Shown here piece after piece: positions 1-11,177 of a DNA stretch of 11,387 nucleotides. The position numbers were made by a program, and so were the translations under genes. The notes below the pieces were generated by a model. The model did no database searches and was not told where the DNA came from. It was given only the letters and a program-made list of their open reading frames with translations. This DNA is from a bacterium (lineage in GTDB: Bacteria > T1Sed10-126). Positions within the stretch are counted from its first letter, which is position 1. Each line of letters begins with the position of its first letter. The stretch is from NCBI GenBank assembly GCA_003557545.1, contig PWOD01000236.1, positions 1 through 11,387 of the forward strand, given 5' to 3'.

Positions 1-618
1 CCGTTCTTTTTTCCGCCTATTTAAATTATTCCATTCCGATTTTGTTCCGATGTAATTATTTTCACCCGCCCAATCTTCATTGATTTTTTCTCCCATCAAC
101 TCTCTATATAACTCAGTTTTTTCGTTTCCGCAAAAAAACGGCGGAAAACGCCAACTTTTCAAATTAATTTGAGGGTTCTGTGATCGATAATAGTGATCAG
201 AGTGCCATTGATAATTTTCAGGGCTATCAGTTAGTCCAGCTTTTGGTGCATTTTGATGAATATAGGGGACAAGTTGGAGAAGATAGGAGTTGTTAAGAAT
301 AATTTTCATTCCAGGACGATCTTTGAATAAATTACCATCACCGGCATGAACGGAATTGAAATAGCGAGCGTACTTCATATGAATGGTTTGAAATATACGA
401 CCGAAGGGTATTGGTCCCATTTGTCCAAGCAAATGATAATGATTGGTTAAAAGGCTATAACCACCGATAGCGGCCTTCATACGATCAAAATCTGAGTCGA
501 GTATTTTTAGAAATTTGCGTCGGTCAGCGTTTGTATAAAATAGCGGAGCCCCTCGCTGCTGTCGAGCAAAAATATGATACCAGTATCCTTCGTGAAACTG
601 TCTTGGTGGATAAGCCAT
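1..618 (-). CDS. Y1 (HUH) transposase, IS200-like / REP-associated type, 3' end cut by window edge
   Basis: An open frame of 206 codons runs from an ATG at 618 to the window edge without a stop, so the C-terminus is missing. It reads as a Y1_Tnp-type single-strand DNA transposase. The metal-binding HUH motif is His60-Tyr-His62 in the context TNHYHLLGQM. The candidate catalytic Tyr119 lies in VPYIHQNAPKAGL, matching the Y-I-x-x-N-P-x-x-A-G-L block of the REP-associated (RAYT) branch. A basic segment near residues 92-103 (GDGNLFKDRP) matches the family's conserved loop. Both active-site elements are intact. No Shine-Dalgarno is visible, but a perfect TATAAT lies 16-21 bases upstream. No insertion-sequence ends or target duplications were seen, which fits a domesticated chromosomal RAYT better than a free IS200 element. 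Family call is strong; subtype is an inference. Confidence 0.85.
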   Translation of the reverse strand, partial: MAYPPRQFHEGYWYHIFARQQRGAPLFYTNADRRKFLKILDSDFDRMKAAIGGYSLLTNHYHLLGQMGPIPFGRIFQTIHMKYARYFNSVHAGDGNLFKDRPGMKIILNNSYLLQLVPYIHQNAPKAGLTDSPENYQWHSDHYYRSQNPQINLKSWRFPPFFCGNEKTELYRELMGEKINEDWAGENNYIGTKSEWNNLNRRKKER

Positions 619-691: not shown

Positions 692-1879
692 TTAGGGTTG
701 TATTAGGACGGAGATTACGTCAAGGTCCTGGATGTTTGCCTGGTGTTCATCCAGCCATTCCATAAGGCGGTGAATCTGATAGCTGGTTTCACCCGCCAGC
801 GGGGGGCTTTCTTCAAGTAAACGTTGGAAACCTGATGTTGGTAATGGTGTGGACGATAAAATTGCAAGATAAAGATCCTGAGTTGGTTGATTATGTTCGA
901 TGGGGAAGGCCATGAAAGCTTCACCGGCGGCTTGCTCCTTCTGGCTGGGTATTTCCCGATTGGACCCGGGTTGAATCTGTAAATTTTCATCAAGAATGCT
1001 GACTCTGCCATCCTCATAAATATTAAACAGAGTTATGTGACCTTCTGTCTGTGCAGCAATTTCAAAGATGAACCAGTCACCCTCCCGTAAGCGATTGTAA
1101 CCACGCAATATATCTAAAGGACGCAGAGATAATTGAACCAGGTTGTTAGCGTTCTTTACCGGTAATCCGAACAACCGGGGAAAATCAGGTTCATCCAGTG
1201 CAACATGGAAAGGTTCCGACTCCTCGGGGCGAACCACCAGATACCACTGTTCGTCGCGGCGTTGAAGATTAAGTTCAACTGTGGCCTGTTCACCGCCCTT
1301 ACGCAAAAGGGTAGATTCAATCTTTGGGATGATATTACCGTTTATCAACGACCGAGGACCGATCCATTTTACAGATCCGGGTTGAATTCTCAGAGAGTTT
1401 TTAATTTTTTCTGCCACAACGACCGGTGCCGCACGACGATCAAGTATAATGATAGCGTAGTGTTGATCGCCCACCTGTTTGGATTTCTCCAGCCGCCAGT
1501 CCTTTAGATGATGAGTGGCTTCAGCTCGTACCCGATGTGTATATTCCTCGGTTATCTGCTGTTGTTGCTCCTGTACAAACTCCATTGTCAGATCCTGGGC
1601 TTCAGAGTGTATAGTAACGCCAAGTTGTCGGGAAATATCCTCAAGCGCATTAAGCCGCGCCTGTTCGGGAGAAGCCCCGCGACCGTAGCCTCGGATAATC
1701 CGGGTTTCTTGTGGTGGATAAAAAGGATTAATATACCAGTCTGGTGAACCGGTCTCTGATGGTTCAATTGTTTGCTCAATATCCGTAACAGTATCTTGCC
1801 CACTGATCCCGAGACAGGCGGTTAAAAAGATTGTTAAGCTTAAAATTAGTGCTATTTGTAGAAGGTTTTTACCAGTCAA
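692..1879 (-). CDS. LPP20-family lipoprotein with C-terminal DUF4384-like domain
   Basis: Predicted 395-residue envelope lipoprotein. Hydrophobic signal with lipobox LTAC and lipidated Cys22. Residues 46-160 resemble the LPP20 family (PDWYINP, then GYGRGASPEQARLNALEDIS, a Gly-rich turn into an Ala-rich helix). Residues 262-345 resemble DUF4384 (EGDWFIFEI, GHITLFNIYEDGRVSIL), a domain I recall accompanying caspase-like peptidases. I prefer the TTG at 1879: GGAG (1889-1892) sits 9 bases upstream and the signal then starts MTGKNLL. An alternative TTG at 1894 would add an acidic MECLI prefix. With the 1879 start the gene overlaps the caspase gene's 3' end by 11 bp, implying translational coupling. 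Likely role: envelope-anchored partner of the caspase. No enzymatic residues are recognised; the molecular function is unknown. Confidence 0.85.
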   Translation of the reverse strand: MTGKNLLQIALILSLTIFLTACLGISGQDTVTDIEQTIEPSETGSPDWYINPFYPPQETRIIRGYGRGASPEQARLNALEDISRQLGVTIHSEAQDLTMEFVQEQQQQITEEYTHRVRAEATHHLKDWRLEKSKQVGDQHYAIIILDRRAAPVVVAEKIKNSLRIQPGSVKWIGPRSLINGNIIPKIESTLLRKGGEQATVELNLQRRDEQWYLVVRPEESEPFHVALDEPDFPRLFGLPVKNANNLVQLSLRPLDILRGYNRLREGDWFIFEIAAQTEGHITLFNIYEDGRVSILDENLQIQPGSNREIPSQKEQAAGEAFMAFPIEHNQPTQDLYLAILSSTPLPTSGFQRLLEESPPLAGETSYQIHRLMEWLDEHQANIQDLDVISVLIQP

Positions 1880-4793
1880 TATTAGACACTCCAAAGAACT
1901 CCGGTGTCTGGTGATAAGCTGATCCCATTTCTAGCGAGGAGTCTTCTACGTTACTGCGTACGTACTGGACGAGTTGCTGGCCACGATAGTTTTCCATAAT
2001 GCCCTTCATCAGCCAGTAACTGAACAGTCGATGCTGGCGTTCAAAATAGGCGTTGGAAAACTGTTCGTCGGTGCCCGCCGTGAGCAAAGTTAACTTATCG
2101 GGAAGCCGGGTTGGGGAGGCTTCGCCTCTCAGAAGCCGGCCGGCCGGGGCCACCCCTTCAAACACCAGTTGATCCTCGTTTACCTGGCCGGAGAAACAGG
2201 CATCGATAAAACCAAAGATCTGTCGGGCCCGGGAAGAGTCAAGTCGGTTATAAAGCGCCTGAAGTGAGAACTGTTCGAAGCGGTCATAGGAGCCGGGCGA
2301 GGCATCCTGCGCCAGAATATAAGCGGCGTCACCGGTGCGGGAGGGAACCCCGTGACCTGAGTAGTAAAAGAATAGCACATCGTCATCTCGCAGCCGCGCC
2401 AGCATCTGTTCCAGCCGGGCGTCGATTCGGCCCACCGTAGCGTCTCTACCGGTGAGCACAGTCATGTTACGGTCGGTGTTAGGTACTCCGAGCCGCTTAT
2501 TTGCCACCTCCCGAAAAAATTCCGTTGAGCGTTCAGAGAAGGGGACGTCCGGGGCTTCAGAATAAACCTCAATACCGATAGCAAACAGGTAGTGGTTGGG
2601 ATTTTCTGGAACTGGCTCGACATGATCCAGTATCTCTCGCAGATCATCGTAAAATTGAATAGATTGTGCTCGTTCTTTACCAGTTCGGGTGGGGACGTCC
2701 CATTCATACATCGGCGCCCGGGCTTCAATGGAGCCGCCGCGTCGCAATTCGACCTGACTGCTAAGATCAGCCATCTCTATGCTGGCCCGCTGACGTAGCT
2801 CTCCCTCGGGGGGATTCATCGTATAGCGAGTCTGTTGTATTTCTACCGAGGCAGATGCCCAATCGATCCCAGAACCACTTATTTCGAATCTTATTTCCGG
2901 GTTGGTTTGTTTGAGCTCTTTTAGAAATTTAGGTCCTTCCTCAGTAAGATTTACGAACGATTTGCGCAACATTAATTGCTGGGAGAAATCTCCAGCCCAG
3001 TCTTGATCTGAACCAATTGTTACGGTAAATACCCGAGCGTCAGCATTGTATTCGGCCTGTTTAATTACCGGGTTACCGAAAACCATTCGGAAGGTTTTGT
3101 TAACCACACCAGGCCACAGGATATTCTGATAAAAGGCATTAATATCTTGTTCGAGTTGGTCGGCCTCTCTATTGTAGAGTTCAGCCTCCTGTTCCCAGCG
3201 TCGAGCTTTCTGCTGGTATTCGTTGCGTAGACGTAATACTCGTTGGCGGTATTGGGCGGTGGTCTCAAACTGACCCTGTTCGGCCCGAGGCGGTTCGGGC
3301 TGGCTGGCTGCAAGTTGTTGCTCGCGAGCGGTTATTTCGGCCTGCCGCGTACGCAATTTTTCGGGTAGAATATTTTCACTGCGGGAAAGGTTGTCAAACC
3401 GTGTTCGAGCCCATTTCTGGACAAGTTCGAACCCTCTTGCATCGTATGGAACATCAAGTTCGCTTCCGTCTGGATAGGTAATCCGGGTCCAGTCGAAACG
3501 TGATAGTCTCTGGATAGCCACACGGTTTTTCCAGTTTGTCCCTATACGAACGTTTTGAATGATAGCAAATGTATAGGCATCAGTTCCTGGAACTACGCGC
3601 GGACGGTGTGTTCGTTCTGCTGCAGGAGTAGTTTCTTTAAACGGATCAGTCATTGCGTAAAATGGGCGAAGAGTATTGGCATCGAAGGCCACGAAGTTTC
3701 CACCGTATTGTGTATGTTTTAGAGCACCATCTTCAACGTGAAAAAATGAATCGGTTGAGAACTGACGCAGAAGGGTAGAACTGTCGTGTGAGTAGCGAAT
3801 TGACCAGGGATCCATCGTATCGGTATGGAATTGGGAGCTTTGTACTCCGCCCCGGCGGAGCATGTCGCCTGTTTCGGCATCGTAAATACGTATGTTGTAG
3901 TAATACATGGCTTCAGCAACCGTTCTGCCGGTACTGCGCCGTAGGGCAACTGCTACTTCCGATCCGTCAGGAGAAAATACTGCATCAGCCGGTTCTATCT
4001 CGGCCTGATCGCTTACGAACAAGAGGGTATGAACGATGTCATCGCTTTGGGTATCAAGAATTCTGACGTAATAATTCCAGTTTCGATCTCTTCCCCAGAC
4101 TACAATTTGTGAACCGTCTGGGGATAGGCCTGTGGATGAATAAGGTAATCGAAGCACGTTTTTAGTTCGACCGGATCCAAGGTCGATGAAATAAATTGCC
4201 CTGGAGGGGTTTCCGGCAGCCACAGCCAGGATCTGGTTGTTCCGGGTGATTGTAAGATCATTTATAATTGGGTCAAAAGAGAATCGCTGGAGCAGTTCAC
4301 CAGTTATGCCGTCAAAAACCCTGATGTCCCTGTCGATGTTTTGCTCTGTGCTCCTCGAGTTGAAAGCGTAGATTAGCAGAGAACCGTCTGGACTGAACTG
4401 CCAGTGTTCGTCGCTTGCAAACACGGAGGCCCGCACGTCAAGCCGGCGTATCTGTTCTCCGCTTTTCAGCTCTTCCAGATAAGCTCCATCACCGGTGTGT
4501 GTGAGTATATGGGACTGATTTGGAGAAATCTGCAGGGCTCGCATCTGTCTTCCTTCTGAAATCACAAATGAACGCAGTGTTTCAATTTCAGGGGTGGTCA
4601 CCTGTTTGTGGTGGGGGAAGAACGGCACATTGCGGGCGGACCAGATAATTTCGTGAGATTCTTCCGCGGTTTGTAGATGAGGAACCTGTGGTCTATCATT
4701 ATCTACAGCGGTTGTTTTAAAGGTGGGAAGACAGGAAGTAGTTAGGACGATAAATAAGAATAATACCACGATAAAATTATAGGTGAATTTCAT
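1869..4793 (-). CDS. exported caspase (peptidase C14) lipoprotein with WD40-like sensor region
   Basis: 974 residues from ATG 4793; a TTG at 4814 would only lengthen the signal. Signal MKFTYNFIVVLFLFIVLTTS ends at Cys21 in a slightly weak lipobox (TTSC). Residues about 70-430 contain WD40/TolB-like blades with repeated SPDGS turns at 134, 224 and 274. Residues about 478-555 are charged, Gln/Arg/Glu-rich and probably coiled coil, including a QFETTAQYRQRV segment. A beta-rich region of unknown type follows. Residues 734-974 form a caspase/p20-type domain with catalytic His814 in YYSGHG and Cys866 in DACFSG, so the dyad is intact. It is the middle gene of the minus-strand locus and has its own near-consensus promoter upstream. 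Inferred role: a proteolytic effector held at the envelope, with the propeller sensing a ligand or partner. The substrate is unknown. Metacaspase-type Arg/Lys specificity versus another specificity cannot be decided here. Confidence 0.92.
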   Translation of the reverse strand: MKFTYNFIVVLFLFIVLTTSCLPTFKTTAVDNDRPQVPHLQTAEESHEIIWSARNVPFFPHHKQVTTPEIETLRSFVISEGRQMRALQISPNQSHILTHTGDGAYLEELKSGEQIRRLDVRASVFASDEHWQFSPDGSLLIYAFNSRSTEQNIDRDIRVFDGITGELLQRFSFDPIINDLTITRNNQILAVAAGNPSRAIYFIDLGSGRTKNVLRLPYSSTGLSPDGSQIVVWGRDRNWNYYVRILDTQSDDIVHTLLFVSDQAEIEPADAVFSPDGSEVAVALRRSTGRTVAEAMYYYNIRIYDAETGDMLRRGGVQSSQFHTDTMDPWSIRYSHDSSTLLRQFSTDSFFHVEDGALKHTQYGGNFVAFDANTLRPFYAMTDPFKETTPAAERTHRPRVVPGTDAYTFAIIQNVRIGTNWKNRVAIQRLSRFDWTRITYPDGSELDVPYDARGFELVQKWARTRFDNLSRSENILPEKLRTRQAEITAREQQLAASQPEPPRAEQGQFETTAQYRQRVLRLRNEYQQKARRWEQEAELYNREADQLEQDINAFYQNILWPGVVNKTFRMVFGNPVIKQAEYNADARVFTVTIGSDQDWAGDFSQQLMLRKSFVNLTEEGPKFLKELKQTNPEIRFEISGSGIDWASASVEIQQTRYTMNPPEGELRQRASIEMADLSSQVELRRGGSIEARAPMYEWDVPTRTGKERAQSIQFYDDLREILDHVEPVPENPNHYLFAIGIEVYSEAPDVPFSERSTEFFREVANKRLGVPNTDRNMTVLTGRDATVGRIDARLEQMLARLRDDDVLFFYYSGHGVPSRTGDAAYILAQDASPGSYDRFEQFSLQALYNRLDSSRARQIFGFIDACFSGQVNEDQLVFEGVAPAGRLLRGEASPTRLPDKLTLLTAGTDEQFSNAYFERQHRLFSYWLMKGIMENYRGQQLVQYVRSNVEDSSLEMGSAYHQTPEFFGVSNIDW

Positions 4794-4841
4794 AATGACC
4801 TGTCCCAGATGCAAAAATCAATAAAAAACAAATTCAGACTC

Positions 4842-4870
4842 AGTATAATATAGAAATGAAGAAAATTCAA
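4842..4870 (-). promoter_or_regulatory. sigma-70-type promoter for the caspase gene
   Basis: On the minus strand a -35 TTGAAT (4865-4870) and a -10 TATACT (4842-4847) are separated by exactly 17 bp. The implied start is near 4835, giving a leader of about 42 bases before the ATG at 4793. It lies in the 239-bp gap after the WD40-ankyrin gene, so the caspase and LPP20 genes can be transcribed independently of that gene. Confidence 0.6.
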
Positions 4871-5032
4871 CTAAACAACTTAATAAAGTCACAGGAGATT
4901 TCTTCTTTTGGCTATTTATAAGTAGAAAAATGGAAAATTCTTATCATAAAAGATTTAGTTTATAAATTAAATTTCCCGAAATTTTTATGTATAGGTCTAA
5001 GATTATCTGGCTAAACTCGCCGCTTGTCAGTT

Positions 5033-6562
5033 CTATCGATTCTCAATTTTGCTGTTATGACTGGCGTTCGCTTTTTCTAATAGTGTTTTGATTTTATGGC
5101 GATCAGCTTCTTGGGCTAGATCCAGAGCTGTTCGCCCGTCTTCCAGTTGAGCGTTTAGATTAGCTCCCATTTCTAATAAAACTTCCAGAACACTGGCTTG
5201 TCCTGTGCTGGCCGCCATATGTAAAGCCGTCATTCCGAGGGAGTTTCGTGTCTCCACGTCTGTGCCACAATGATGACCAGCTCTGGCGAGATCAGGCCAG
5301 CCATATTCTGCGGCCAGATGGAGAATGGTTCCGGTTGATGTTTTTTGTCTGGCAATTCCGGCCAGAAAGAATTGATCGAGTAGTTTAGTATTGTTTGTAT
5401 CCCAGAGTTCTGTAAAAAAGCCCAGTATTCCAGTTTTTATCGGGTCAGCAAAACCCGTAAGTTCTGCTACCCGCTGGCGGGCTTGTTTTTGTTCTGTATC
5501 GGTTGGGTAACAGATCAGACCGTAAGGCAGGGTGGAAATTCGCAGGGTTTGAGCTGTGGGTTTAGGGTGCTCATCCAGCAGGACTATTTGAGAGGTTGCC
5601 GGAGATACAGTTTGTAATTCTCGTTCTTTGTAAAGGCGAAGTACTGTGAGTGTTTCAATATCGAATGTTCCCAGTAGTTTATTAGTATCATATGATAGCA
5701 GTTTGGAATCGTTGTCATAAAATTTGACTAATTGAAGCGGTGCTGAATGTACAATATAAGAGTGAAATGAAGTTCCTTTTTTTACGTCAAACAGTTGAAT
5801 TACGTGGTCATCTCCACCAGAAGCCAGACGGGATCCGTCACTGGAAAAAGCCAGGGTACGGACCGGTTGAGTATGGCCGACGAATAAATGTTCCTGTTGA
5901 CCGGTGTGTAGGTTCCATAATCGAATGTTATTGTCGCCACCACCGGATACCCGCGATTTTTCGTCCGGTGAAATAGTCAGTGCAAAAACTCCTGTGTCAT
6001 AAATCTGCTGGTGCTCCGGCAATTTATCAAGCTGCTTATTTAAGGTAAGACTCCAGATTACGATTGTGCCTTCGCCGGTCCCCGCAATTAGCCGTTCGCC
6101 GGTATGAGTCACAACAAGGGCGGTGATCGGTTTGTCATGGATGGTCCATTTTTTGTCTGGTTTTCCTGTGTTTGTATTCCAGCGCCGTACGCTTCCATCT
6201 TTATGTCCGGTAAAAAGATGATGGCTGTCCGGCGAAAAGATGATTGAATGGACCGGAAGGGGAGTTTCCCATTCGGTTCTTTTCATGGAGTTTTTCCCGG
6301 TTTTCACGACAGTTAGAATTTGTTTGTCATCTGTCTCCAGGACTAAACAAAGCTGGCTTTCGTCGGGGGAAAAGGTTGCTTTGGATACAGTCATATCGGC
6401 ATCGATTACTGCATTAGCGGGCATTGCCCAACTGTGAGCTTGTGCATCGTAAGCGCTGAGTGGTGAGATAATATCGTCGCAAGTATTAATAAGCATAAAT
6501 AGACTAATTAGCCAGAGAGATGTAAATAAAAATTTTGATGAAATTATTTTGAAAAAAACCAC
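5033..6562 (-). CDS. exported WD40-repeat / ankyrin-repeat fusion protein
   Basis: 509 residues from a GTG at 6562, with AGGAG (6573-6577) 10 bases upstream. The N-terminus is one hydrophobic stretch (residues 5-27), a signal peptide or anchor. Cys28 in LINTC resembles a lipobox but Thr at -1 is atypical, so lipidation is doubtful. WD40 blades span about 60-310; clear repeats lie at 109-135 (SGHKDGSVRRW-type), 159-172, 197-222 (GGGDNNIRLWNLHTG) and 239-264 (GGDDHVIQLFDV). Residues 409-497 form about three ankyrin repeats (ILHLAAEYG, TALHMAASTG, TALDLAQEA). Both modules bind proteins and no catalytic motif is seen. It is upstream of the caspase lipoprotein on the same strand and shares its WD40 theme, while the ankyrins match the divergent lipoprotein. 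Inferred role: scaffold, sensor or inhibitor for the caspase. Domain calls are firm; the role is not. Confidence 0.9.
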   Translation of the reverse strand: MVFFKIISSKFLFTSLWLISLFMLINTCDDIISPLSAYDAQAHSWAMPANAVIDADMTVSKATFSPDESQLCLVLETDDKQILTVVKTGKNSMKRTEWETPLPVHSIIFSPDSHHLFTGHKDGSVRRWNTNTGKPDKKWTIHDKPITALVVTHTGERLIAGTGEGTIVIWSLTLNKQLDKLPEHQQIYDTGVFALTISPDEKSRVSGGGDNNIRLWNLHTGQQEHLFVGHTQPVRTLAFSSDGSRLASGGDDHVIQLFDVKKGTSFHSYIVHSAPLQLVKFYDNDSKLLSYDTNKLLGTFDIETLTVLRLYKERELQTVSPATSQIVLLDEHPKPTAQTLRISTLPYGLICYPTDTEQKQARQRVAELTGFADPIKTGILGFFTELWDTNNTKLLDQFFLAGIARQKTSTGTILHLAAEYGWPDLARAGHHCGTDVETRNSLGMTALHMAASTGQASVLEVLLEMGANLNAQLEDGRTALDLAQEADRHKIKTLLEKANASHNSKIENR

Positions 6563-6642
6563 TGTTGCTCAACTCCTATGCGAGAAAAATATATTTGATG
6601 GTCAGGTTTTTTACCATAAAAAATATCGATCAATACGTATCA

Positions 6643-6671
6643 ATCATATCTGCGTTTATCAGAACCGGCAA
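6643..6671 (-). promoter_or_regulatory. sigma-70-type promoter for the WD40-ankyrin gene
   Basis: Minus strand -35 TTGCCG (6666-6671) and -10 TATGAT (6643-6648) with a 17-bp spacer, leading to a leader of about 75 bases before the GTG at 6562. Immediately downstream, overlapping the -10, two ATCAAT direct repeats (6629-6634, 6639-6644, plus strand) flank ACGT, a possible operator. The match is reasonable but the region is AT-rich. Confidence 0.45.
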
Positions 6672-6813
6672 CGGTTTGAGAATAAGATTTAAATTTATCG
6701 GGGTTATTTCGGGTAAGGTAGAAAATCTTTATAAAATTGAAATATTTAAAAGAAAATTGGTCGTGTTAGTTTTACAGATGGATATTGAATGTAATTTATT
6801 GGTCAAGCAGTTC

Positions 6814-6847
6814 TTTGAAAAGATATAATTATTGTATCTTTTTCAAA
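6814..6847. repeat. AT-rich imperfect inverted repeat
   Basis: Arms TTTGAAAAGATA (6814-6825) and TATCTTTTTCAAA (6835-6847) pair with one bulged base around a 9-nt loop. Neither side is followed by a T-run in the transcribed sense, so it is not a standard terminator. It separates the two divergent leader regions. Confidence 0.4.
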
Positions 6848-6916
6848 AAAGATCTCTGGAGTAAAAAATTGTTTATTCTAGTAATTGGTATTTGTCCTGT
6901 AGTGTTTCGTTTTTGA

Positions 6917-6940
6917 CTTTTCGATATACTGCTCGAAAGG
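6917..6940. promoter_or_regulatory. inverted repeat upstream of the ankyrin lipoprotein gene, possible operator
   Basis: CTTTTCGA (6917-6924) and TCGAAAGG (6933-6940) are inverted complements with one mismatch, separated by 8 bases that contain a -10-like TATACT (6925-6930). No good -35 is placed 16-18 bp upstream. It could be an operator over a weak or activator-dependent promoter for the gene at 7003. Low certainty. Confidence 0.3.
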
Positions 6941-7002
6941 TTAGCAGTTATAGAAGTCATCTAATAATAATAGGTTCTGAGCGGAAGGAGGCTGCAATTA
7001 TT

Positions 7003-7779
7003 ATGAATGAGCGATTTCAGCCGGATGGATTAGTTCGAGTGGTGAAGTGGTTGATTGTTGTTATTCTGGTTTTTGGATTGGCGGGTTGTCTGTTCAGAAG
7101 TCCTTTGGTACGGGCCATTGAATCAGGTGACCTGGAGAGAGTGCAGTCTTTGATTGAAGCTGATCCTGATCAGCTTCACCAGGTGCAAAATCCGCTGGGC
7201 GAGGTACCGCTGGTGATCGCCGCTCGCTCGAGTTCTCCCGAAGTTGTTCGTTTTTTGTTGGAGGCTGACCAGGATCCAGTTGTGATGAGCTGGGTTGGGG
7301 TTTCCCGGCGGGCAATTGAGAACGCCGTTGCTTATGGAAATCTGGAAATTTTAAAGTTGCTGGTTGAGTATGGAGGGAGCGTAGAACCTGATTCTGAAGC
7401 TGAAAGATCACTATTGCATCATGCCGCGCGGGTTCGGGGAACTCCTGAATTGATCAACTACCTGATAGAACAGGGACACGGCGTTGATGATCAGAGTCGT
7501 TCGGCGGGATATATGCCACTGCATTATGCGGCATGGTCTGACCGGCCCGAGATAATAACAACCTTGATTGAAGCGGGTGCTGACCCTGGAGCCGTTTCTG
7601 ATAATGGCTGGACTCCGCTGAGATTTGCAATTTTCAATTGTTCTCAGGAACTGTGGGATATATTGATTGACAGTGGCGCCGATCCAGATGAAGTGCGTCC
7701 AAATACGGCTCAGACTTTATCAGCCCGGGAATACATGGAAGTTGCTGAAGATTGTGGTCGGCGTTTAGTTGTTGAGTGA
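7003..7779 (+). CDS. ankyrin-repeat lipoprotein
   Basis: 258 residues. The frame is open upstream, but the ATG at 7003 is chosen because the classic signal begins there: basic n-region, hydrophobic core residues 17-27, lipobox LAGC with Cys29. A strong GGAAGGAGG (6983-6991) lies about 11 bases upstream, slightly far. Nearly all the mature protein is ankyrin: six repeats at about 33-62, 66-96, 101-131, 134-164, 169-199 and 202-232, with typical turns such as MPLHYAAWSD and EAGADPGAVSDNGWTPL. No enzymatic domain is seen. It is transcribed divergently from the WD40-ankyrin gene, so the two probably belong to one system. Inferred role: envelope-tethered protein-binding partner, for example a regulator or immunity-like inhibitor of the caspase. 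Other explanations, such as a general envelope scaffold, remain open. Confidence 0.9.
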   Translation: MNERFQPDGLVRVVKWLIVVILVFGLAGCLFRSPLVRAIESGDLERVQSLIEADPDQLHQVQNPLGEVPLVIAARSSSPEVVRFLLEADQDPVVMSWVGVSRRAIENAVAYGNLEILKLLVEYGGSVEPDSEAERSLLHHAARVRGTPELINYLIEQGHGVDDQSRSAGYMPLHYAAWSDRPEIITTLIEAGADPGAVSDNGWTPLRFAIFNCSQELWDILIDSGADPDEVRPNTAQTLSAREYMEVAEDCGRRLVVE

Positions 7780-7856: not shown

Positions 7857-8048
7857 ATGGCTTCTTTTAGCTGTACGTTTATGGAATATGAAAAACGTTA
7901 TTGTTATCGCATAAATGCAGAATGTGTGCCAGGAAGACCCGGTTGTATTTTGCCCGATGATACTAAATTTAATGTGGATTGGAAGCAGCGTTTAGAAAAA
8001 CGCCGTCAGGAAAAACAGCAAGCTCCAAATCAAAAATTTTATGGTTAA
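7857..8048 (+). CDS. small four-cysteine protein of unknown function
   Basis: 63 residues from ATG 7857. An in-frame TGA shortly upstream fixes this as the only ATG start. A perfect AGGAGG (7835-7840) lies 16 bases upstream, longer than usual, so translation may be modest or use local structure. Cys6, Cys17, Cys23 and Cys30 (spacing 10, 5, 6) precede a PGRPGC turn, a plausible metal-binding knuckle. Residues 41-55 are a basic, charged helix (WKQRLEKRRQEKQQ). No signal peptide or membrane segment, so probably cytoplasmic. I have an uncertain recollection of short anaerobe proteins with a similar Cys...CVPGRPGC pattern. The composition and Shine-Dalgarno argue for a real gene. It lies 77 bases after the ankyrin lipoprotein gene and may share its transcript. 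Function unknown. Confidence 0.65.
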   Translation: MASFSCTFMEYEKRYCYRINAECVPGRPGCILPDDTKFNVDWKQRLEKRRQEKQQAPNQKFYG

Positions 8049-8469
8049 CAGTGATAATTATAGCAGTTCTGAGGCAATAATAAAAAAACTTCAAGAGGAT
8101 CTCCTTCTAAAAAAAACGATTTTACCAGGGTTGTAGTTAAAACTGATAATTATGCGAGAAAGTTTCTCCAGATGTTAATAATTAAACCCGAAAAAAAGCT
8201 GAGTTTTTCTAAGGATAGGAATTATTGTACTAATGATATTTGTCACCAAAGTCAGGTTGATATAATCCAGCTTTGCAGAACATTCTATTTTATCATCTAC
8301 CATGCTCTATTGTGAGCAAGAAATTTGCTCCAATTGATCTAATAATTATATATAGAAGTGATTTGGGTCGTAGTATTAGAAACTTTTTTTGAACCGTTCA
8401 AGTTGTTCACAGAAATCAATTGTTAAGATTATTATTGTTGGTTAATTTTTGATAAGGGATGGAAATAAA
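8049..8469. other. gene-poor stretch, no recognisable coding sequence
   Basis: About 420 AT-rich bases. A plus-strand frame stays open from 8073 to about 8315 but lacks a start near its beginning, a ribosome site and any recognisable protein. A solid hairpin is present at 8309-8334. This looks like decayed DNA continuous with the aminotransferase relic that follows. Confidence 0.5.
8309..8334. repeat. hairpin in the gene-poor stretch
   Basis: ATTG-(T)-GAGCAA (8309-8319) pairs with TTGCTC-CAAT (8325-8334): 10 bp with one bulged T and a 5-nt loop. No T-run follows on either strand and no gene ends here, so its role is unclear. Confidence 0.5.
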
Positions 8470-8744: not shown

Positions 8745-9161
8745 TTAAATTGAGTAGTTGAAGGTTCCCTGGTGCCGCTGCCAGCAGCTGAGTAGTTCTC
8801 TGAAACTGGTATCAAAACAGCCTGTGAATTCATCATCGGTATCTTTCCAGTAATTTTTTAAGATTGGATTTTCAACTTTAGCTGCTGCCGTAAGATCGAC
8901 TTCGCCTTCCAAGATTTGAACCACATCCCAGACAGTTATTTCTTCCGGCGTTTTTTCTAAGGTATATCCACCTCGGGCTCCCCGATGACTGGCAACTATT
9001 TCCGCTTTTTTCAATTCAATTAAAATTTGATCGAGATAGTTGCGAGGAATATTATGTTTTTGAGAAATATCTTTTACCCTGGTTGGTTCCTGTCCATAAC
9101 GCAGAGCCAGCTCAAAGATAGCCGATACTCCATAAACCGTTTTGGCTGATAGTTTAAGCAT
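8745..9161 (-). CDS. Rrf2-family transcriptional regulator, CymR-like
   Basis: 138 residues from ATG 9161, giving the family's usual MLKLSAKTVYG start. A TTG 72 bases further upstream is rejected because it lies in the -35 of this gene's promoter. AAGGA (9170-9174) is 8 bases from the ATG. The winged helix-turn-helix spans about 8-70 (VKDISQKHNIPRNYLDQILIELKKA, then the wing SHRGARGGYTL), followed by the DVVQILEG dimer helix. The three-Cys Fe-S cluster loop of IscR/NsrR is absent near residues 91-105; only Cys115 and Cys126 occur. The tail (VENPILKNYWKDTDD) resembles CymR, the Bacillus and Staphylococcus cysteine-metabolism repressor that also lacks a cluster. It lies downstream of sulfur-carrier enzymes on the same strand. 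Inferred role: cytoplasmic repressor of sulfur or cysteine genes; the assignment to CymR is by resemblance only. Confidence 0.85.
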   Translation of the reverse strand: MLKLSAKTVYGVSAIFELALRYGQEPTRVKDISQKHNIPRNYLDQILIELKKAEIVASHRGARGGYTLEKTPEEITVWDVVQILEGEVDLTAAAKVENPILKNYWKDTDDEFTGCFDTSFRELLSCWQRHQGTFNYSI

Positions 9162-9170
9162 AGTTAAAAT

Positions 9171-9185
9171 CCTTTTCAAAAAAGG
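9171..9185 (-). promoter_or_regulatory. small hairpin covering the Rrf2 ribosome binding site
   Basis: CCTTTT and AAAAGG arms form a 6-bp stem with a 3-nt loop in the leader. The minus-strand AAAAGG arm is part of the Shine-Dalgarno AAGGA (9170-9174). The stem is weak, but it could dampen translation of the regulator. Confidence 0.35.
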
Positions 9186-9204
9186 TTTTTCAAGTGCTTT
9201 ATTA

Positions 9205-9233
9205 AGTATATTAAATTGTCCAGCTTCTGCCAA
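9205..9233 (-). promoter_or_regulatory. sigma-70-type promoter for the Rrf2 gene
   Basis: Minus strand -35 TTGGCA (9228-9233) and -10 TATACT (9205-9210), each 5 of 6 to consensus, with a 17-bp spacer. The start would be near 9198, giving a leader of about 37 bases. Upstream, a tandem GTGATC GTGATC (9251-9262, plus strand) lies 17 bp beyond the -35 and may be a regulator site. Confidence 0.65.
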
Positions 9234-9955
9234 TGGATTTACAAATAGGCGTGATCGTGATCAAACAAGACTATCCTGTTTTTTGGAAATAATCTTTGGA
9301 TTATAGTCATGTTTTATTGACAGTTAAACGGTTATTCGATCAAAAGCAGTAGATACTGTTGAATTTAAAAAATCGTGGTTGTTGATAACCCTTTTAAAAT
9401 CAAATTTTCTTAATTATTGATTGACTGGCGAAAGTAATGAAATCAATTTCCCTGCAGCGAGTTTTTTATTATTATGCTGGAGCAGTTTCATAACTGGTCT
9501 TATAAAGTGAAAAATAATTTTTAACCGAACTGCTCAGATAAATCGGGACTGGTTAATAGAGTTTAAAATAATCGATAGTTCAGTTTTTTTCGGGAATTTA
9601 TCTAGAACTTTCGTTCCAAAATACCACGTTATATCTCTGTCGTGAGTATTTTTTAAAAGCGAAAACTATGAGAAAAATTTCGCTTTCTGAGATTGATGAT
9701 TTCTGTTTGATCAGTACAGGGTAATTAATAGTGATTCAGAACTATTTCGTTAGTACGGTTGAGTCGATAAGCTGTCCGGCAGAAAAAGTATAAGCTGCGA
9801 ATTAATTGTTAAAAGATAGGCTTTTCAGGATCATTTTGGGCATTAACGAGAATGCAGATATTCAGTTTGAAAGGCTCCGGTCTGGCGACATTTAGTAATT
9901 GGTGGTTTGACAGCTGGTACGCGGGGAAAACTTGCTGTAATTGTTAAATAAAGGT
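9234..9955. other. long gene-free stretch between Rrf2 and the JAMM protease gene
   Basis: About 720 AT-rich bases dense with stops in all six frames. The longest pieces (for example a 31-codon plus-strand frame at 9852-9947) have no ribosome site or recognisable product. Contents seen: the tandem GTGATC near 9251 and a hairpin at 9656-9686. No tRNA, riboswitch or CRISPR repeats were recognised. It may be a graveyard of a lost gene between two sulfur-related loci. Confidence 0.55.
9656..9686. repeat. perfect 9-bp inverted repeat in the gene-free stretch
   Basis: AAAGCGAAA (9656-9664) and TTTCGCTTT (9678-9686) are exact inverted complements around a 13-nt loop. It lies about 270 bases beyond the end of the JAMM gene. 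No proper T-run follows on the minus strand, so it is not a clear terminator. Confidence 0.45.
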
Positions 9956-10399
9956 TTAATCAGTATTTAAAAATTTTATTGGAATTTCTCTAACAGTTTT
10001 TTCTTGGTCGATAATAAATCCCCGAAACTCTGGTTGTTGTTTTTCCAGGGAGACAATCAGATAGACTACAGTTGGATAGAAAGCCAGCTTTTTATCTTCT
10101 TCCGAGGGATATGCTTCGCTGTGAGGATGGCTGTGATAGATCGCCAGTACAAGATCTTCCGTGCCACGCAGATTTTTGAACAGTTCGAACTGCTCTCGGG
10201 GATCAATAGTATAATGTTCCCGGGAGCTGTCAGTGTTGGTCATGCGGTGAACAGTCTTTACTCTGTCCGGTTTTCCCGATAAAAGTCCACAGGCTTCCAG
10301 TGGTGCCATCTGGCGACAATGTTCGACTATTTGCTGACGCAGTTGTCTCGGTAATATTAATTTATCTGGCGGCTTAGAGATCACTGACTGGTTTTTCAT
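9956..10399 (-). CDS. JAMM/MPN+ metalloprotease of the Mec+ (M67) type
   Basis: 147 residues, the size of stand-alone bacterial JAMM peptidases; ATG 10399 has GGAAGG (10406-10411) 6 bases upstream. The zinc site is complete: Glu35 in LEACGLLSG, His89 and His91 in YHSHPHS, Ser99 and Asp102 in the JAMM pattern HSHPx7SxxD. Known relatives, such as mycobacterial Mec and Wolinella HcyD, cleave residues from the C-terminus of a ubiquitin-like sulfur carrier, freeing either the product amino acid or the Gly-Gly end. It overlaps the end of the E1-like gene by 26 bp, so the two are coupled and should act on the same carrier. No signal peptide, so cytoplasmic. The active site is seen; the substrate is inferred. 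Confidence 0.9.
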   Translation of the reverse strand: MKNQSVISKPPDKLILPRQLRQQIVEHCRQMAPLEACGLLSGKPDRVKTVHRMTNTDSSREHYTIDPREQFELFKNLRGTEDLVLAIYHSHPHSEAYPSEEDKKLAFYPTVVYLIVSLEKQQPEFRGFIIDQEKTVREIPIKFLNTD

Positions 10400-11177
10400 A
10401 GTTAACCTTCCGTAGATCGGTTATTGAGGCTTTATTGCTGCAGACCGGACAGCTGGAATTCTGTTTTATTGAGACCCGTTGAAAATTCATTTTTTCGACA
10501 TTAACCAGTAATAATTTATTGTCTAGCAATTCTCCGTAGCCCAGCAGATATTTCAATGTTTCAGCTGCCTGGATAGTTCCTAATATTCCGGCAACAGCTC
10601 CTAAAACTCCAGCCTGCCGGCAGCTTGGAACTGCTTGAGGATCGGGGGGTTGAGGAAAGATGCAGCGCAGACAGGAAGCTCCGGGTAGATGTGTCATAGT
10701 TTGCCCCTGCAATCGGAGAACTCCGGCGTGGGAGTAGGGGGTAGAGGTTAATACTGCTGCATCATTTATCAAAAATTTTGTAGCAAAGTTATCGGTTCCA
10801 TCTACTACAAAATCGTATTCATCAAAAAGTTCAACGGCGTTTCCGGGGACTAACCGATGCTGATAAGTCTGAAAACTGACGTCTGGATTTAGATTTTTTA
10901 ATTTACTGACAGCCGACTGTGTTTTAGGTTGTTCGAGATCATCAGTAAAATGAACAATCTGTCGCTGCAGGTTTGAAAGATCAACAGAATCATTGTCAAC
11001 AATTCCAATTTTCCCAACGCCGGCTGCCGTCAGATAGTAGAGGATGGGGGAACCCAGTCCGCCCGCACCAACCACCAGGACTTTTCCACCAAGAAACTTT
11101 TTCTGGCCTGTTCTACCAATATTCGGGATGATAATATGGCGGTTGTATCTTCCAATCTGTTCCTCTGTTAGATCCAT
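10374..11177 (-). CDS. E1-like ThiF/MoeB/HesA sulfur-carrier adenylyltransferase
   Basis: 267 residues from ATG 11177, with GGAGG (11188-11192) 10 bases upstream; usual length for the family. ATP-binding Rossmann loop GAGGLGS (37-43), Asp61 after the second strand, the NLQRQ segment (69-73), Lys85, and DGTDN (126-130). Two zinc CxxC pairs are present (Cys169/172 and Cys243/246). Cys186 in VPSCRQAGVLG matches the conserved active-site cysteine. It adenylates the C-terminal Gly of a ThiS/MoaD-like carrier so that sulfur can be loaded as a thiocarboxylate. No rhodanese domain is fused, so sulfur must come from a separate donor. The JAMM neighbour favours a cysteine or homocysteine type pathway over thiamine or molybdopterin. 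Cytoplasmic. Family call is firm; the exact pathway is inferred. Confidence 0.93.
   Translation of the reverse strand: MDLTEEQIGRYNRHIIIPNIGRTGQKKFLGGKVLVVGAGGLGSPILYYLTAAGVGKIGIVDNDSVDLSNLQRQIVHFTDDLEQPKTQSAVSKLKNLNPDVSFQTYQHRLVPGNAVELFDEYDFVVDGTDNFATKFLINDAAVLTSTPYSHAGVLRLQGQTMTHLPGASCLRCIFPQPPDPQAVPSCRQAGVLGAVAGILGTIQAAETLKYLLGYGELLDNKLLLVNVEKMNFQRVSIKQNSSCPVCSNKASITDLRKVNYEKPVSDL

Follow-up and report, generated by a model that had tools for sequence, protein, structure and literature searches.

An exported caspase and an LPP20–DUF4384 lipoprotein are encoded by two overlapping genes in the window (the whole stretch of DNA analyzed here, an entire contig of 11,387 bp), and the pairing of related caspase genes with DUF4384 genes has been found in at least eight further phyla; this points to an envelope protease system that has yet to be described. 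Our preferred reading, to which we assign a probability of roughly 0.6, is that the caspase is an envelope-anchored sensor regulated by the LPP20–DUF4384 lipoprotein. Caspase homologues are common in bacteria; a role is known for few of them, and the most familiar are regarded as cytoplasmic proteins. If the reading is true, caspase-type proteolytic signalling would occur in the bacterial envelope, and the locus offers a testable handle: a defined protein pair, a predicted compartment, a mutable dyad, and a predicted change in specificity. The window is part of a 2.15-Mb genome (91.9% complete) of a bacterium from a little-known phylum.

Gene organization

The caspase gene (1869–4793, minus strand) likely begins at the ATG at 4793, giving 974 residues, while the alternative TTG at 4814 would give 981. 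The LPP20–DUF4384 gene (692–1879, minus strand) likely begins at the TTG at 1879, with GGAG upstream of it, and this start overlaps the end of the caspase gene (stop codon, 1871–1869) by 11 bp. Because of the overlap and the start context, the two genes are probably translationally coupled, as a two-gene operon would be. The WD40–ankyrin gene (5033–6562, minus strand; 509 aa) is on the same strand, upstream of the caspase gene, with at least 218 bp between its stop and the caspase start. The ankyrin-repeat lipoprotein gene (7004–7779, plus strand), divergent from the other three, likely starts at the ATG at 7004, downstream of a Shine–Dalgarno-like AAGGAGG, and encodes 258 aa. The preliminary description had treated these four genes as one compact locus. 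All four were found with the claimed domains as open reading frames with Pfam matches, those to LPP20 and DUF4384 lying just below the hmmscan cut-off. By sequence, the grouping is supported for the overlapping caspase and LPP20–DUF4384 genes, and not for the divergent ankyrin gene or, across its gap, for the WD40–ankyrin gene.

Architecture of the two core proteins

In the predicted structure, the caspase consists of a signal helix, a WD40 propeller (approximately residues 69–379), a coiled coil (approximately 452–558), a low-confidence beta region, and the C14 domain (approximately 717–974). Confidence in the structure models is moderate, with a mean pLDDT of 59 for the caspase, higher within its domains, and of 67 for the other model. 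The propeller has seven blades and is weak by sequence and clear in the model: residues 69–379 match WD40 propellers such as those of Sec12, WDR5, and Apaf-1 with Z scores of about 20–21. The C14 domain scores 36.9 bits, over the Pfam cut-off of 21.4 (E = 4e-9), and its model aligns with the MALT1 paracaspase over 217 residues (Z = 21.4); the fold is alike, whereas the overall architecture and the predicted location differ, and the identity is 13%. The catalytic dyad is complete, as the preliminary description had stated: its figures, H814 and C866, follow the numbering from the ATG at 4793, and the motif D-x-C-x-S-G is intact. Among the relatives described below, the His is kept in 149 of 151 and the Cys in 150 of 151. 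At the thresholds used, the caspase domain is the sole C14 domain in the genome, the DUF4384 domain is likewise the sole one, and the genes that carry them adjoin.

The LPP20–DUF4384 protein has a strong lipobox (LTAC). Its LPP20 domain (E = 4e-5) is borderline, with 27.6 bits in the genome search (cut-off, 25.9) versus 24.3, just under the cut-off, in hmmscan, and the DUF4384 domain scores 21.7 bits against a cut-off of 27 (E = 2e-4). An iterated DUF4384 profile, of which the window protein was a seed, recovers that protein together with other members at E = 2e-27. A partner-family profile gives a weak match to Campylobacter FlgP (9hmf_C in the flagellar motor structure 9HMF; E = 0.003), and an SHS2-like fold is common to FlgP, Lpp20, and FlgT (PMC12222027). 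When the model of the LPP20 domain was inspected for a ring-forming insert such as that of FlgP/FlgT, about 40 low-confidence residues were seen from the helix to the next strand. The DUF4384 domain is modelled as an Ig-like beta-sandwich with modest VIA-align Z scores (8–9) that are close to background, and a Foldseek search with the LPP20–DUF4384 model returned nothing at E < 0.001. The N-terminal domain and the lipobox are like those of the LPP20/FlgP/FlgT family (PMC12222027), while the C-terminal Ig-like DUF4384 domain, the caspase neighbour, and a window without flagellar genes set the partner apart from it. In two loci of Campylobacterota, exported proteins encoded directly upstream of the caspase (L020, 8203–8994; L095, 5038–5982) have, by eye, an LPP20/FlgT-like N-terminus without a Pfam match.

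Recurrence of the caspase–DUF4384 pair

When genome contigs were searched, the full-length caspase gave no match, while the C14 domain profile gave matches. By tblastn, an exported caspase with 38% identity over the caspase domain was found on a plasmid of Sulfurimonas aquatica, where an LPP20 lipoprotein gene then follows the caspase gene with a 4-bp overlap. A profile built from these two caspases detected relatives in 37 of 386 genomes. DUF4384 was mapped separately in the same 386 genomes, and it lay within 5 kb of 18 of the 61 caspase relatives (15 genomes), against 0.27 expected from the DUF4384 hits per genome. In a second collection, of named genomes, the C14 domain profile yielded 79 loci. 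Of the caspase loci, 30 of 75 in the named genomes and 14 of 39 in the first collection have a same-strand DUF4384 gene no more than 5 kb away; since the queries included linked members, these proportions describe the relatives of this caspase rather than all bacterial caspases. The named phyla that have the pair number at least eight: Campylobacterota, Myxococcota/Deltaproteobacteria, Nitrospirota, Nitrospinota, Cloacimonadota, Bacteroidota, Latescibacterota, and Pseudomonadota.

Among the linked loci (n = 46), the gap is shorter than 60 bp in 26, the genes overlap in 12, and the partner is downstream in 33. When neighbours were clustered, the DUF4384 family was the most frequent, at 46 of 121 loci; the second most frequent occurred at 14. 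In L061 and L063, the caspase and DUF4384 domains are fused in one protein, and an LPP20–DUF4384 partner is also encoded downstream of the caspase in Sulfurimonas, Thiovulum, Helicobacteraceae, and a deltaproteobacterium. By a crude hydrophobicity rule, N-terminal export signals occur in 90 of 105 and 37 of 47 caspase relatives and in 30 of 31 and 14 of 14 DUF4384 partners. The linkage to DUF4384 was seen for 50 of 127 exported caspases versus 3 of 14 apparently non-exported ones, which is not a significant difference (Fisher p = 0.25). At about 60% of the loci with a related caspase, the visible stretch lacks a DUF4384 gene, which means that such a partner is not required.

The preliminary description had proposed that a recurrent neighbourhood would mark an envelope caspase system with ankyrin partners. 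A recurrent neighbourhood was indeed found, far above chance and across at least eight phyla, for the caspase and DUF4384 (often LPP20–DUF4384), and the N-terminal signals on nearly all products and the WD40 and ankyrin fusions described below agree with an envelope system; separate ankyrin genes did not recur, and lipid anchoring of all four proteins was not borne out.

Putative sensor modules and the ankyrin genes

Fused modules were identified in the 152 related caspases, mostly N-terminal to the caspase domain: ankyrin repeats in 19 and WD40 in 18, with FG-GAP, LamG, or CARDB domains in others. At six loci, the gene next upstream of the caspase gene encodes a related exported protein; in Bacteroidota, the three such proteins that were examined are WD40-like propellers. 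Exported caspase genes, several with ankyrin repeats, were observed as arrays in L118, L123, L139, L074, and L075, with six genes in a row in L118 (Nitrospirae). Another neighbour family recurs in eight loci (L056, L075, and L133 among them) and includes proteins that, by eye, resemble CHASE2-type extracytoplasmic sensors.

The domain calls for the two ankyrin proteins of the window are unambiguous in Pfam (WD40, E = 3.5e-28, and Ank_2, E = 4e-12, in the WD40–ankyrin protein; Ank_2, E = 2e-35, in the other). Export or lipoprotein signals had been ascribed to all four products. The lipoboxes of the LPP20–DUF4384 protein and the ankyrin protein (LAGC) are strong, that of the caspase (LTTSC) is weak, and that of the WD40–ankyrin protein (INTC) is doubtful and may be a signal anchor, so that protein is best called exported or signal-anchored; lipid anchoring of the caspase and of the WD40–ankyrin protein is uncertain. 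LspA and Omp85 were found in the genome; a search for Lgt in the 91.9% complete assembly found none.

The WD40–ankyrin gene is associated with the caspase only by its position and by analogy with WD40–caspase and ankyrin–caspase fusions, and the ankyrin gene only by position. Since such fusions and upstream propeller genes exist elsewhere, both proteins may plausibly belong to the system. No separate ankyrin gene was seen beside a caspase in the other loci, except one short fragment in the frame-broken L138, so the claim that these genes are caspase partners failed to find a parallel. Within the phylum of the window, the comparison covered one other genome, the sister genome G001, which gave no caspase match at E ≤ 0.001 and no DUF4384 match at E ≤ 1e-5; its ankyrin matches are located elsewhere and not at a four-gene unit. 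The four-gene unit is accordingly unproven, and the two-gene core is solid.

A narrower reading, which we regard as an even call and which is compatible with the core of the sensor-caspase reading, is that the unit comprises the caspase and LPP20–DUF4384 genes only, the two ankyrin genes being unrelated neighbours. An AT-rich stretch of over 200 bp and a divergent gene orientation set the ankyrin genes apart, which fits this reading, as do the relatives that, but for the L138 fragment, have no separate ankyrin gene by the caspase. On the other hand, all four products are exported repeat or partner proteins, fusions of ankyrin repeats or WD40 to caspases are common, and the Bacteroidota have a separate propeller gene just upstream.

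A change in the S1 pocket

A tree of 70 caspase domains, made by a quick method with SH-aLRT as its sole support measure, places the window protein in a clade with one Oxalobacteraceae and four Campylobacterota proteins (SH-aLRT 99). Three DUF4384-linked proteins join at the next step out (SH-aLRT 98), and eight of the nine members of this wider clade have a DUF4384 neighbour. By alignment to metacaspases, Ser756 of the window protein (763 if counted from the TTG; codon at 2526–2528, minus strand) occupies the site of the S1-pocket Asp95 of the trypanosome metacaspase TbMC2. In the alignment columns, 144 of 151 relatives have Asp at this site; the six members of the window clade all have Ser, as does one unrelated copy. 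The second pocket Asp, two residues before the Cys, is kept (D864), and the two-Asp acidic pocket that goes with the Arg/Lys specificity of metacaspases is thus incomplete in the window protein. The accommodation of basic substrate residues is stated to depend strongly on Asp95 and Asp211 (PMC6426788). The change from Asp95 to Ser therefore predicts a shift in cleavage specificity.

Relation to known systems

It was described in 2012 that bacterial caspases may carry WD40 modules and N-terminal transmembrane or signal segments, and action at the cell surface was suggested for some of them (PMC3501461). The earlier statement that known systems act mostly in the cytoplasm is thus correct in part, although a possible extracellular location had already been noted. 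The window caspase resembles the bacterial orthocaspases (Peptidase C14; PMC3501461, PMC5756287) in its p20 His/Cys dyad, its D-x-C-x-S motif, its fusion to WD40, one of the interaction modules found there, and its N-terminal signal, which some of them have. It differs in that its relatives are mostly exported and in many cases have an exported DUF4384 or LPP20–DUF4384 gene as partner, and in the Asp-to-Ser change of the S1 pocket in its clade. In cyanobacteria, the caspase is also tied to DUF4384, by fusion to orthocaspases (23 proteins listed; PMC8283722); in the window, by contrast, DUF4384 belongs to a distinct exported protein, the lipoprotein that also has the LPP20 domain. Neither a description of an exported caspase with an LPP20/DUF4384 partner nor an experiment on any member was found in the literature, where our search was thin on subscription papers, and this absence is not a proof of novelty. 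"Caspase family protein" and LPP20 occurred together in no paper found, and caspase and DUF4384 only in papers on cyanobacteria or orthocaspases.

Proposed mechanism and alternatives

The sensor-caspase reading may be outlined as follows. Gene 1 would encode an exported, membrane-anchored caspase of the orthocaspase type, in which the WD40 propeller would serve as a sensor or docking head, linked by the coiled coil to the C-terminal catalytic p20 domain. Gene 2 would encode a lipoprotein with an LPP20 domain (SHS2-like and FlgP/FlgT-related) and an Ig-like DUF4384 domain. This lipoprotein would interact physically with the caspase and probably hold it at the membrane and control it, as an anchor, an inhibitor, or an assembly scaffold. 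An envelope ligand bound by the propeller may cluster the caspase and thereby activate it, the signal possibly being relayed through the neighbouring WD40–ankyrin and ankyrin proteins, and the active caspase would cut one or a few envelope proteins. The outcome would more probably be signalling or quality control than cell death. More tentatively, and with the odds somewhat against it, the locus may represent a widespread, undescribed class of diderm envelope sensor-caspases with exchangeable WD40, ankyrin, or lectin-like heads and LPP20/DUF4384 regulators, in which the Asp95-to-Ser change has turned the cleavage specificity of one sub-branch (the window, Campylobacterota, and Oxalobacteraceae) away from Arg/Lys.

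Gingipains and PorU, secreted proteases of clan CD, offer a parallel for a processing enzyme. The adjacency of the two genes could reflect a protease and its substrate: a housekeeping envelope protease, not engaged in sensing or signalling, that trims the LPP20–DUF4384 lipoprotein or the proteins of surface appendages. Some relatives weakly match other clan CD families (C25 and C13), and the LPP20 domain of the partner has relatives among flagellar accessory lipoproteins that form rings (PMC12222027), both of which suit such an enzyme. We nevertheless consider it unlikely, because the N-terminal modules vary widely (WD40, ankyrin, FG-GAP, LamG, and CARDB), which fits sensors better than one fixed substrate, and because the distribution is patchy and the search of G001 found none. 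The same patchiness, together with variable, repeat-rich sensors, could also suit defence or cell suicide, in which phage adsorption or attack by a competitor would set off an envelope caspase that kills by cutting envelope proteins; the relative in L020 lies on a plasmid among genes of the toxin–antitoxin type, and the PADLOC caspase model was matched, weakly. We hold this to be distinctly improbable: among the Pfam matches listed for the four proteins (for the WD40–ankyrin protein, the best 25 of 48), there is no NACHT/STAND domain and no pore-former or nuclease partner, and the clustering of neighbours around related caspases revealed no recurrent defence genes. To our knowledge, neither DUF4384 nor LPP20 is a defence partner.

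Surroundings of the locus

The idea of a horizontal island was examined by GC content and was not supported (0.45–0.53 in the locus versus 0.46 in a 55-kb genome sample). A gene for a REP-associated tyrosine transposase (1–618, minus strand), open at the contig edge, adjoins the LPP20–DUF4384 gene, and a 15-bp palindrome (653–685) lies between them. Just 3′ of the ankyrin gene is a short open frame (7857–8049, plus strand) that starts MASFSCTFMEYEKRYCYRINAECVPGRPGC. Farther along, a cluster at 8745–11177 (minus strand) comprises an E1-like ThiF/MoeB/UbaA protein, a JAB-domain desampylase-like protein, and an Rrf2 regulator, and it can be read as a bacterial sulfur-carrier or small protein-modifier set.
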